A stretch of 64,000 nt of DNA from Draconibacterium orientale. Lineage in GTDB: Bacteria; Bacteroidota; Bacteroidia; Bacteroidales; Prolixibacteraceae. The stretch lies in NCBI RefSeq assembly GCF_000626635.1, contig NZ_CP007451.1, positions 3,171,501 through 3,235,500 of the forward strand, given 5' to 3'. The notes beneath the pieces are model-generated. The model was not told where the DNA came from. It did not search any database and saw only the letters and a list, made by a program, of their open reading frames with translations. The translations under genes were made by a program, and so were the position numbers. Below are positions 20,126 through 47,018 of this stretch, in pieces; position 1 is the first letter of the stretch; each line of letters begins with the position of its first letter.

Positions 20126-20147
20126 TAGTTTCTACTACAACTATCGA

Positions 20148-20315
20148 GTTCTCCCACGCGAATTGTTCGATCTCCCACAAAAAGAATCACTTCTCCCTGC
20201 TTTGGAGGCCGTTCTCCCATGGTTTTCTGCTGTTCTCCCATGGCTATAGATGGTTCTCCCTCGATTAGGGGTAGTTCTCCCATACATTTTTCCGGTTCTC
20301 CCGCGGGAGATTTTA
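20148..20315. repeat. Array of eight units with exact 21-bp period, core GTTCTCCC
   Basis: Units start at 20148, 20169, 20190, 20211, 20232, 20253, 20274 and 20295, with no deviation in spacing. Six units begin exactly with GTTCTCCC; the other two are GATCTCCC and CTTCTCCC. The remaining 13 bases of each unit are essentially unrelated. The last unit contains the 14-bp perfect palindrome TCTCCCGCGGGAGA (20297-20310). The array lies between the 3' ends of two convergent genes. On the minus strand it stays open as a repeated G-R-T-x-x-x-x heptad (possible 48-residue frame at 20287-20141). It is not CRISPR-like, because only 8 of 21 bases are conserved. The function is unknown to me. Confidence 0.85.
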
Positions 20316-20402
20316 CAAAATGTCAGCGAATTGTGTTTTTTGTATGTGTAATTTTACTTTTTGTAAGGGAGAGCTGTCGTTGATAACAAGTAAATACCCC
20401 CA

Positions 20403-33417: not shown

Positions 33418-33870
33418 TTAGCCCGAAACCTTCACGTTCATTGCCGCCGGTCCTTTGGGCCCTTGTCCTTCTTCGTAGGTAACGCGGTTGCCTTCTTTTA
33501 AATCGCCTTCCACTTCGTTTATGTGAACAAAAATATTCTGATTATTCGCCAGGTTGCGAATAAATCCGTATCCTTTTTGTTCGTTAAAGAAAGTAACCAC
33601 ACCTTGTTTTTCTTTCGGCTCTGCTTCTCCGTAGCCGCCTTTTGGTACACTTACATCAATATCTTCAATGTTTACTTCTTCTTTTTGTGTTTCATCAGGC
33701 GGAGTGTCGGTGATGTTACCAAACTCGTCAACATAGGCAATCATGTCGTCCAATCCTGAGTTGCCGCCATTTTCTTTACGAGCCTGTTTTCTTGCTTCTT
33801 TTTCTTTTCTCTTCTTTGCTTGTTTTTTTCTTACTTCTTTTTTACCAAATGTTTCTTTCGATCTTCCCAT
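33418..33870 (-). CDS. Cold-shock-domain protein with basic N-terminal extension
   Basis: The 150-residue protein ends in a cold-shock domain (about 87-149) with RNP1 (KGYGFIRNL) and RNP2-like (NIFVHINEV) motifs. The first 35 residues are extremely basic (MGRSKETFGKKEVRKKQAKK and more), and the middle (about 36-85) is acidic and probably disordered. This layout is common in Bacteroidota CSD proteins of 140-160 residues. It binds single-stranded RNA or DNA. A -7 box at 34037-34044 implies a leader of about 160 bases, as in cspA-type messages. The NYN/LOTUS gene follows it. Confidence 0.9.
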   Translation of the reverse strand: MGRSKETFGKKEVRKKQAKKRKEKEARKQARKENGGNSGLDDMIAYVDEFGNITDTPPDETQKEEVNIEDIDVSVPKGGYGEAEPKEKQGVVTFFNEQKGYGFIRNLANNQNIFVHINEVEGDLKEGNRVTYEEGQGPKGPAAMNVKVSG

Positions 33871-38415: not shown

Positions 38416-39834
38416 ATGAAAGGAACAATGCAGAAAATCTTTGATGATTCGAAGACCTGTCCGCAAAAGAATAGGACGGCATCCGAAGGCTATGCGGGAG
38501 GGCAGACTTTTATAGAGATAACAGAAAACAACCTCACTCCCAACTATCAGTCAGAGAATGGATTGTTAGAACGTATCCTTTCATCCTCCAACCTAAACAC
38601 AGCTTACAAACAAGTTAAGCGGAATAAAGGAGCAGGAGGTGTTGATAAGATGCAAGTTGAATCCTTAAAGGATTATCTTGTCTGTCACAAGGATAAGTTA
38701 CTGGCCTCTATTCATAAAGGTAAATACCGCCCCAATCCTGTGAGACGGGTGGATATACCTAAAGAAAACGGGAAGAAGCGTCAGTTGGGTATCCCCACAG
38801 TCGTAGACAGGGTTATCCAACAAAGTATCGCACAACAACTACAGTTGATCTTTGCCCCCGAGTTTTCGGATCACAGTTACGGTTTCCGTCCAAAACACAG
38901 TGCCCATCAGGCACTTCAAAAATGGCAGGCTTACATCACGCAAGGTTGTGGTTATGCAGTTGATTTAGACCTCGAACGTTTCTTTGACACAGTATGCCAC
39001 AGCAAACACATTGAGGTATTATCCCGAAAGGTAAAAGATGGGCGGGTCATATCGCTTATCCATAAATACCTTAATGCAGGAGTGATGAAGGACGGTAAGT
39101 TTGAAGAAAGCTATGAAGGGGTGGCGCAGGGAGGACCGTTAAGTCCATTATTGAGTAATATTTTTCTTAATGAACTGGACAGGGAACTAGAGAAGCGGGG
39201 CCATAAGTTTGTTCGCTACGCCGACGACCTGGTCATCTTCTGCCGAAGCCAACGAAGTGCCGAACGGACAATGAAGAACATCGTTCCTTTTATTGAAAAG
39301 AAATTGTTTTTAATAGTCAATCGGGACAAGAGTAAGGTTGCATCAAACAGGAACATTAGGTTTCTTGGTTACTCTTTCTATAAATTTAGAGGGAAATTTA
39401 GAGGGAAAGGCAGGCTGCGCATTCACCCGAGAAGTGTGGATAAGATGAGAGCTAGAATCAGAGAACTTACATCCCGCAGTAACGGTTGGGGAAACGACCG
39501 AAGAAAGGTTGCGCTCCGGCAGTACGTCACTGGTTGGGTGCAATACTTCAAGCTGGCAGATATGCAGAAGCTTCTAATCAAAGTTGATGAATGGTATCGT
39601 CGAAGGTTGCGCATGGTTATTTGGAAACAATGGAAACGAATAAAGACCAAGGGTAAGAACCTGATTAAGTTGGGTGTAAATAAGTACAAGGCATGGGAGT
39701 GGGCGAATACAAGGAAAGGCTATTGGCGATTAGCGCATAGCTGGATCCTTTCTACCTCCATTACCAATGAAAGGTTACGAATTACTGGCTACGTTTTCTT
39801 TTCGGATTGTTATCGTAAGGTAAGAAGTTGTTAA
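38416..39834 (+). CDS. ltrA: Group II intron reverse transcriptase/maturase
   Basis: The 472-residue protein helps the intron splice and copies it during retrohoming. Reverse-transcriptase blocks are clear: RRVDIPKENGKKRQLGIPTV, DHSYGFRPKHSAHQAL, AVDLDLERFFDTV, GVAQGGPLSPLLSNI and the catalytic RYADDLVIF. The maturase X domain follows (about 330-450; ALRQYVTGWVQYFKLAD). There is no HNH endonuclease domain, so it belongs to the endonuclease-less type. A 12-base direct duplication near 39380 (KFRGKFRGK) is within the frame and does not break it. The ATG at 38416 is preceded by ribozyme sequence. Confidence 0.95.
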   Translation: MKGTMQKIFDDSKTCPQKNRTASEGYAGGQTFIEITENNLTPNYQSENGLLERILSSSNLNTAYKQVKRNKGAGGVDKMQVESLKDYLVCHKDKLLASIHKGKYRPNPVRRVDIPKENGKKRQLGIPTVVDRVIQQSIAQQLQLIFAPEFSDHSYGFRPKHSAHQALQKWQAYITQGCGYAVDLDLERFFDTVCHSKHIEVLSRKVKDGRVISLIHKYLNAGVMKDGKFEESYEGVAQGGPLSPLLSNIFLNELDRELEKRGHKFVRYADDLVIFCRSQRSAERTMKNIVPFIEKKLFLIVNRDKSKVASNRNIRFLGYSFYKFRGKFRGKGRLRIHPRSVDKMRARIRELTSRSNGWGNDRRKVALRQYVTGWVQYFKLADMQKLLIKVDEWYRRRLRMVIWKQWKRIKTKGKNLIKLGVNKYKAWEWANTRKGYWRLAHSWILSTSITNERLRITGYVFFSDCYRKVRSC

Positions 39835-45721: not shown

Positions 45722-45762
45722 TGGTGAACTATAAAATTATTTTTCGTATCTTTTGTTCACCA
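45722..45762. repeat. Inverted repeat TGGTGAAC ... GTTCACCA
   Basis: Perfect 8-bp arms separated by 25 AT-rich bases, 40 bases after the mscS stop codon. It could be a transcript end structure or an operator. Confidence 0.45.
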
Positions 45763-45865
45763 AAACAACACAAGTGCATTTTACAACTATTACATATGCC
45801 TATTCAGTGTGTTTTTACTTGCCTGTGGTAACTGAAAACTGCAGAAATGCTGTGCAAAAATGTAG

Positions 45866-46135
45866 GCTATCGCAGTTGACAGGCAGTGTTTTCTCAAAAA
45901 AATGCATCCTTTCGCATGCTGCAACCCATGTTTTTTCAAAAAAGAGGGGCCTATCGCATGCGATAACCAGTGTTTTCTGCAAAGAGTGGCCCCTATCGCA
46001 TGCGATAGGCAATGGTTTTTCAATAAAACAGCCTCTTGCGCATGCGATAGGCAATAGATTCTTAACGAAATGCTCCCTTTCGCATGCGATAAGTAGTGTT
46101 TGCTCAAAAATATGGTGCTTATCGCACTTGCTGAA
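45866..46135. repeat. Array of seven units with exact 42-bp period, palindromic core
   Basis: Cores start at 45866, 45908, 45950, 45992, 46034, 46076 and 46118, each exactly 42 bases apart. The best core is the 18-bp perfect palindrome CCTATCGCATGCGATAGG (45992-46009). Outer units are degenerate. The other 24 bases are semi-conserved around CAGTGTTTTCTCAAAAA. On the plus strand the array reads as a 14-residue repeat L-S-H-A-I-G-x-x-F-S-K-K; on the minus strand it is open as well. The period equals four helical turns and twice the period of the 20148 array. It lies after mscS and before a hypothetical gene. The function is unknown to me. Confidence 0.88.
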
Positions 46136-46286
46136 ATCCCTATTGGTACTGATGTTTGGGGCGTTTAACGAAGATTTTCACTATTGTTTAAATGAAATTC
46201 CTCCGGAATTAAAATTCAATATAGTATTAATCCTCCCGGATACTTTCCAAGAACGGAATAACCCCCGGGACTAAAATTTATGAATT

Positions 46287-47018
46287 ATGCCATACCGACG
46301 TATGCCAGTTTCTATTATCGACAGAACCAAAGTGCTGGAAAAAACCAGCGAAAAAGCCACCAGTACGCCCGCCGATCAATGGGCGATAAGTACCGAAACG
46401 CAAACACGGCTCACCACGCTTTACCCGGCTTTTCGACAGGAAATAGCCGAGCGGCAGGAGCAGTTTGCCAAACAAGCCGAGGCTTCCGAAGTGGAAAATG
46501 CACAGCAAGTGGTGTTACATCGTTGCGTGTCGCATTTCTTCCAGGTTTTTAATTTAGCTGTTGAACGGGGTGTGTTTAGTGCATCAGATCGTTTGTACTA
46601 CGGATTGAATGCCAACCAGAGCGAACTGCCCAAACTAAGTACCGAACAAGACCTTACTACCTGGGCACTTAACCTAATAATGGGCGAGCAGAAACGTACA
46701 CAACAGACCGATCCCGAAGCCGCAGACCCGGTGCCTATGAGTAACCCGTCGGCAGCCGAAGTGCAGACCGAACTAATGCGATACAATGAGTTAAGCAGCG
46801 CACAGTCGGCCGAAAAGCAGGCTTTTGATGCCGAAAACAAAGATGTGCTGGATATGCTGCCAGAAATCGACGAATTGATACGTGATATTTACGATGAGGT
46901 AGAATTTTACTACCGCAAAGAAACACCCCCCAACCGCCGAAAACTAGCACGCGAGTGGGGTGTGAGCTATGTATCGAGGCCGGGCGAAGAACCCGATGAT
47001 GAGGTGGTGGAAGAGTGA
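46287..47018 (+). CDS. Hypothetical protein, helical, acidic tail
   Basis: The 243-residue cytosolic protein is mainly helical (QTRLTTLYPAFRQEIAERQEQF, VQTELMRYNELSSAQSAEKQAF). It has a segment typical of a folded end (DVLDMLPEIDELIRDIYDEVEFYYRKE, LAREWGVSYVSRPGEEPDDE) and an acidic C-terminus. I cannot name a family; proteins of this layout occur in Bacteroidota next to repeat regions. Alternative ATG codons occur at 46280 in another frame; the frame starting at 46287 is the one with protein-like codon use. A hairpin terminator follows. Confidence 0.6.
   Translation: MPYRRMPVSIIDRTKVLEKTSEKATSTPADQWAISTETQTRLTTLYPAFRQEIAERQEQFAKQAEASEVENAQQVVLHRCVSHFFQVFNLAVERGVFSASDRLYYGLNANQSELPKLSTEQDLTTWALNLIMGEQKRTQQTDPEAADPVPMSNPSAAEVQTELMRYNELSSAQSAEKQAFDAENKDVLDMLPEIDELIRDIYDEVEFYYRKETPPNRRKLAREWGVSYVSRPGEEPDDEVVEE

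Follow-up and report, generated by a model that had tools for sequence, protein, structure and literature searches.

The 64,000-nucleotide window analysed here belongs to the 5.13-Mb single contig of its source genome, Draconibacterium orientale, and contains a run of palindromic units that recur with a period of exactly 42 bp. This locus raises the question of what kind of element such a run represents, be it a coding repeat, a structured RNA, a selfish repeat or a row of protein binding sites.

Structure of the array and its neighbourhood in the window

Direct reading of the forward strand revealed six head-to-tail units of exactly 42 bp each at positions 45867-46118, with starts at 45867, 45909, 45951, 45993, 46035 and 46077, followed at 46119-46130 by a closing half-site TTATCGCACTTG of a type found at array ends. 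The family consensus unit is CTATCGCATGCGAAAGGCAGTGTTTTTTCAAAAAAGTGGCCC and includes two dyads, located between positions 8/9 and 29/30 and 21 bp apart. The exact 42-bp period that had been claimed in the earlier note was recovered by Tandem Repeats Finder, which reported a period of 42, and by the lag-42 identity, which amounts to 0.67 across the array; 252-bp segments sampled elsewhere in the window do not exceed 0.43, nor do 5000 first-order Markov resamples exceed 0.37. Likewise, the 18-bp palindrome ascribed to the middle unit is perfect and reads CCTATCGCATGCGATAGG at 45992-46009. The array consists of six full units and this half-site, so that the seven of the earlier description are reached for the cores by including the half-site. 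The proposed decay at the edges, as in an array growing from the middle, was not borne out, as the end units represent distinct types common to several sites: the first core reads GCAGTT or GTAGTT in 22 of the 37 arrays collected in this study, and the half-site behind the last unit reads GCACTT or GCATTT in 16 of 37. Elsewhere in the window, a weak periodicity of 21 bp (identity 0.48) and of 63 bp (identity 0.43) was noticed at 20145-20400, and short tandem repeats are also present at 33787-33842 and 39382-39408.

The window copy is indeed open on both strands, with one forward and two reverse frames, as the earlier note had pointed out. A meaningful 14-residue peptide repeat is nevertheless contradicted by the relatives, in which the frame corresponding to the open forward frame of the window carries stops in 24 of 35 arrays and the matching reverse frame in 19 of 35. 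Moreover, the substitutions between orthologous arrays hit the three codon positions evenly (136, 147 and 144). A protein-coding repeat was rejected on these grounds; the arrays do not look coding and are free of coding constraint.

The array is preceded on the forward strand by a leader at 45724-45866, delineated by alignment, that consists of the promoter-like sequence GTG-N20-TATCTTTT at 45724-45754 and the conserved stretch CACCAAAACAACACAAGTGCATTTT. The promoter-like part resembles imperfectly the -7 box of Bacteroidota, which is given as TAnnTTTG in PMC9723704. Among 13 aligned leaders, eight that are found at different genomic places share this block closely (the window copy, L038, L039, L115, L117, L121, L124 and L196). 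The gap between the array and the following gene includes at 46194-46275 (forward strand) a G/C-rich conserved 5' untranslated stretch, TTCCTCCGGAA ... CCCCCGGGACTAAA, which was recognised by eye here and in L038, L039, L115, L117, L124 and L196 and possibly serves translational or termination control. The gene itself (46287-47018, forward strand) was characterised by homologue and family searches as an accessory paralogue encoding a protein of 243 aa that starts with MPYRR. Close homologues with at least 80% identity comprise seven copies in five genomes, all seven being preceded by leader and array, while the flanks of these seven cassettes differ by eye. Leader, array and gene therefore seem to travel together as a block, as far as can be judged from these sequence comparisons. 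The wider protein family (about 245 aa, start MPYRRLP; L193-L221) has a match in 36 of the 37 genomes of the genus, each of these 36 having a distant copy at 24-30% identity. Neither the 243-aa protein nor the family members scanned along with it had a Pfam or NCBIfam match above cut-off; the 243-aa protein yielded no PADLOC match either, and its predicted helical model (pLDDT 84.8, pTM 0.59) gave no Foldseek match at E <= 0.001. The earlier note had named a fragment of a known mobile element as a finding that would refute it; no such element turned up in what was searched, but the window copy does form part of the recurring cassette.

Genomic distribution and length change of the array family

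A BLAST search with the window array detected relatives in several species of the same genus. A profile of two units, applied at E <= 1e-4 with stricter filters by which weak matches were lost, was positive for arrays in 14 of the 140 family genomes, which without exception belong to the genus of the window (one of 23 genera); provided that all 37 genomes of this genus are among the 140, none of the 103 genomes of other genera contains an array. A permissive scan of the 37 genus genomes (E <= 0.01) yielded 16 positives, of which two have just one weak match each, and a search at the level of the order gave one weak match each in 36 of 393 genomes outside that of the window (best E 8.5e-4), which was taken as background. 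Exact-pattern searches found no match in viral contigs; the matches in a Clostridiales MAG (L033) and a Paludibacter MAG (L035) were rejected as arrays of this kind, as they involve two sites only. In the latter, two perfect TATCGCATGCGATA palindromes at L035 117-163 are situated 33 bp apart directly before an ORF and are perhaps an unrelated operator. The literature that was covered, mostly outside subscription journals, contained no description of such arrays in Bacteroidota by title or abstract.

The collected set comprises 37 arrays with 194 units; their intergenic sites are of about 11 kinds by our own grouping, and all 37 arrays are placed between ORFs or, at a contig end, beside one ORF. 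Among these collected arrays, for which the profile matches were fetched in part, the number of units per genome ranges from 2 to 42 and the number of array loci reaches at most eight. The genome of the window harbours two more arrays of six units each, at about 1.81 and 5.13 Mb (L112 and L113), and, near 4.948 Mb (L144), one lone 42-bp unit that is bordered by end half-sites and follows a pckA-like gene, possibly a minimal element or a remnant. The one array on which the earlier note was based is accordingly a member of a dispersed and lineage-restricted family. The gene names pckA, porP, susD, lptD, tolC and DUF2723 are used by the look of the proteins, as the scan of flanking genes for protein families covered the two neighbours of the window array and the homologues of one of them. 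Of the 36 loci with an upstream ORF, 29 have the nearest one in the same orientation as the array; many of these loci are orthologous, and two of the 36 ORFs look spurious. By eye, the genes directly before the arrays L036, L043, L112, L119 and L127 appear outer-membrane-like (PorP/SprF-, SusD-, LptD- and TolC-like). Two contigs of genome G009 end inside arrays (L120 1-306 and L123 3279-3403); assemblies may break at these repeats, so that arrays would be undercounted. A role as terminus marker was rejected, as the coarse GC skew is not clearly linked to the array position of 3.217 Mb: in 22 samples, the switch from plus to minus occurs near 4.8 Mb and that from minus to plus within 2-3 Mb.

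When the genomes were ranked by similarity of the DUF2723-like gene to the copy of the window genome, the 14 array-bearing genomes were exactly the 14 top scorers. With the pckA-like gene of G009 as query, array-free genomes, G017, G004, G032 and G020 being examples, score among the array-bearing ones. A single origin of the array family is therefore likely from these rankings, but not settled.

Array length differs between species, a point raised in the earlier note: among the 16 genomes displayed for the orthologous site of the pckA-like gene, two carry long arrays (7 and 6 units), the genome of the window carries one unit and 13 carry none. At the site before the DUF2723-like gene, an array is present in 8 of the 15 genomes displayed and missing in 7. 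Orthologous arrays differ in length by 42, 84 or 126 bp. The 18-unit array at L116 3057-3641 (genome G013) displays a higher-order repeat of 126 bp (3 x 42), a pattern suggestive of recent duplications of three units at a time. Within the 37 arrays, 155 of 157 spacings measure exactly 42 bp, the others being 84 and 40 bp, under a chaining rule that accepts spacings of 38-46 and 82-86 bp and ends a chain at a larger shift; an end unit of L044 that belongs to no chain measures 61 bp. Comparisons of orthologs yielded 1115 substitutions, 21 whole-unit gaps and four other gaps that pair up to 42 in the arrays, versus 1214 substitutions and 51 gaps in the flanks. This gap contrast corresponds to a Fisher value of about 1e-10 with the four other gaps included, an indicative figure given that the compared pairs overlap in sequences. 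As substitutions are similar in number, array letters not being clearly better conserved than flanks, and gaps of anything but whole units hardly occur, the letters of the arrays vary about as freely as their surroundings while the register stays fixed.

Symmetry, helical phasing and rival explanations

The 427 substitutions found in 12 ortholog pairs are unevenly distributed across the unit (chi-square P about 1e-8). The predicted dyad axis ranks first among the 42 possible mirror axes, both by information content (rho 0.86) and by substitutions (rho 0.64), so that the constraint on the unit is dyad-symmetric. The palindrome arms belong to different types in different arrays (TATC, TTCC, TTCT, CTTT and others), several types occurring together in one genome, and the arms match each other at 4.05 of 5 positions within arrays versus 3.26 when arms are dealt between arrays; none of 20000 shuffles of these arrays, which share common ancestry, was as high. 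Clear covariation was restricted to columns 4 and 13 among the first 80 units. With all unit types included, the column pairs 12-5, 13-4, 14-3, 15-2 and 24-35 were above shuffles, and no pairing was found for columns 18-41 to 20-39. Complementary arms could also arise without selection by template-switch correction.

The strongest harmonic of the AA/TT, A/T and G/C steps is located at 10.5 bp, that of the A/T steps slightly exceeding the 42-bp fundamental, and the G/C steps are 155 degrees out of phase with the A/T steps. Among 1000 column permutations, the observed 10.5-bp strength was reached by 0.3% for A/T and 1.3% for G/C. A 10.5-bp peak is present in 26 of 29 arrays versus 15 of 179 background segments, the arrays being non-independent owing to their common ancestry. 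Since the power of a 42-bp tandem repeat necessarily falls on a few harmonics (14, 10.5 or 8.4 bp) and the units are related by descent, these data are suggestive, not proof, of a real phasing signal. Preservation of the A/T versus G/C class by substitutions was not observed: the class is kept by 93 of 427 substitutions in arrays versus 135 of 465 in flanks (P = 0.014), i.e. slightly less in the arrays.

One rival explanation assumes that the arrays are transcribed into chains of 42-nt hairpins within 3' untranslated regions, or a 5' untranslated region in the case of the window, and stabilise, terminate or regulate messages. The prevailing co-orientation of the upstream ORF and the promoter-like leader are in line with this assumption, as is the finding that in all 36 arrays tested the hairpins exceed shuffled sequence in stability, with z = -4.67 on the forward and -3.57 on the reverse strand of the window array. 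Selected pairing on one strand should, however, cause G-U cells to outnumber A-C cells, and the totals over the whole dyad are equal (450 versus 447 in 175 distinct hairpins from 36 arrays), similar to those of the outer stem columns 12-17 (105 versus 96). Columns 21-27 alone favour G-U (225 versus 69), as a structured RNA would, by an excess carried by the non-covarying columns 21-23; by array, 21 are rich in G-U and 11 in A-C, with 4 ties (P = 0.11). Moreover, folding is better on the reverse strand in 27 of 36 arrays and on the forward strand in 9 (P = 0.001), whereas an RNA transcribed from the leader would require the forward strand to fold better. The limitation of clear covariation to columns 4 and 13 in the first 80 units, the near-absence of the loop-length variation that RNA hairpins tolerate and an Rfam search that returned two chance matches only (E = 1.3 and 2.6) argue in the same direction. 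On account of the equal totals and the better-folding reverse strand, we read the arrays as acting at the DNA level, and an origin of their features in untranslated-region RNA appears unlikely.

A different view regards the arrays as a selfish or neutral palindromic repeat of the REP or MITE type that becomes inserted between genes, grows and shrinks by whole units and keeps its palindromicity through template-switch correction. This would account for the presence or absence of arrays at the orthologous pckA-like and DUF2723-like sites, including sister species that lack an array at the same site, for the length steps of 42, 84 or 126 bp, for the higher-order repeat in L116 and for the end-unit types common to different sites. 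The mirror-symmetric constraint and the scarcity of gaps other than whole units speak against it, since they point to selection on the array itself. In addition, no mobilising enzyme was found among the positions listed, Y1_Tnp genes occurring in 35 of 37 genomes irrespective of arrays, and the collected loci number at most eight per genome; overall, this view is rather improbable, although it deserves to be kept in mind. Finally, the array might be the regulatory region or the partner of the adjacent 243-aa protein, either as a binding array or in an RNA-protein pair resembling a type III toxin-antitoxin system. The leader and array upstream of all seven close homologues of the gene fit this idea, which is hardly compatible with the 31 of 37 chained arrays that have no such gene beside them, with the 9 of 14 array-bearing genomes without a close paralogue and with a protein of no recognised family or fold, and which we regard as very improbable.

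Known repeat systems and a candidate site for DNA wrapping

The arrays were compared with known repeat systems. CRISPR loci likewise display a leader followed by regularly spaced short repeats; in the arrays the entire unit is repeated and unrelated spacers are absent, in agreement with the earlier note, and a CRISPR was rejected. Type III antitoxin RNAs share with the window array a tandem repetition of units of about 40 nt, preceded by a promoter-like leader and followed by a gene; the situation here differs in that 31 of 37 arrays lack the gene and in that no family is matched above cut-off by the neighbouring protein. The iteron arrays of plasmid origins are equally phased repeats of whole helical turns; the present arrays differ by their location at several chromosomal sites and by complementary arms that vary from array to array. 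Another likeness is to the REP and BIME-2 elements of enterobacteria, which are intergenic clusters of palindromic units with variable copy number and candidate gyrase sites, all 37 arrays being extragenic short palindromic repeats. REPs are described as keeping their palindromicity through complementary changes (PMC2817692), and the palindrome arms of the present arrays are also kept complementary. The differences concern orientation, spacing and copy number. The units of BIMEs alternate in orientation, whereas those found here are arranged head to tail with an exact 42-bp period and an almost invariant length between units; substantial length variation is reported for the inter-REP segments of Stenotrophomonas, and over 100 REP copies per genome (PMC2817692) contrast with the few units of the collected arrays. 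With model R1, the window array scored 71 bits on the forward and at most 39.5 on the reverse strand, a difference that is smaller in some arrays, L124 and L116 among them. REP palindromes bear a GTAG or CGTC tag at one end; in the present set, GTAG forms part of the first core in 9 of 37 arrays, is present somewhere in 22 of 37 and occupies positions 5-12 in 9 of 194 units, and CGTC occurs in 2 of 37. Regarding RAYT (Y1_Tnp) genes, which REPs flank, none of the eight positions listed, out of 12 in the genome of the window, lies within 30 kb of an array.

The gyrase motif of Escherichia coli is described as symmetric, about 130 bp in length and with a GC phasing of 10.75 bp, and BIME-2 palindrome arrays as containing gyrase cleavage sites above expectation and as behaving like strong sites irrespective of transcription (PMC6379681; for BIMEs also PMC2817692). 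The present arrays resemble strong gyrase sites, such as those of phage Mu and pSC101, in the symmetric alternation of A/T and G/C at about one helical turn (PMC6379681), subject to the caveats of ancestry and harmonics that apply to their own phasing, and differ from them by tandem repetition and palindromic arms; gyrase binding is a candidate property here. Because the arrays resemble gyrase and BIME-2 sites in symmetry, phasing, intergenic place and tandem form, we propose, as our leading though still tentative reading, a lineage-specific, non-coding intergenic DNA element of BIME-like type that presents helically registered palindromes to a candidate DNA-binding or DNA-wrapping protein. 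Several observations weigh against this reading: substitutions keep the A/T or G/C class slightly less often than in the flanks, the two strands are unlike in folding and in the G-U excess of columns 21-27, array letters do not clearly surpass flanking ones in conservation, and sister species have no array at the same site. The period of 42 bp would correspond to four turns of 10.5 bp and impose a strict helical register, by which the array would offer a row of equally oriented, symmetric and bendable sites, alternately rich in A/T and G/C. Such sites might be bound or wrapped by a protein, with DNA gyrase as the best-motivated candidate, a guess by analogy, and a nucleoid-associated protein as the alternative. 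Many arrays are situated 3' of a gene, where positive supercoils would accumulate from transcription, so that an effect on topology or chromosome organisation is conceivable; the window copy would act from its position between the promoter-like leader and the 243-aa gene.

In its boldest form, this DNA-wrapping reading states that a lineage of the Bacteroidota evolved its own chromosomal wrapping stations, i.e. register-locked tandem palindromes located behind envelope and metabolic genes and serving gyrase or a nucleoid protein as strong sites, with selection directed less at the letters than at the shape, spacing and self-complementarity of the DNA, a proposal that we consider doubtful but worth stating. 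The helical register predicts that an insert of 5 bp (half a turn) between units would abolish function and that one of 10 or 11 bp would not. If confirmed, the arrays would constitute a natural experiment in which selection holds a 42-bp spacing of four turns and the symmetry while the letters drift. If true, they would represent a BIME-like element of an origin separate from that of the classical REPs, which would support a role in chromosome topology for palindrome arrays located at the ends of genes.
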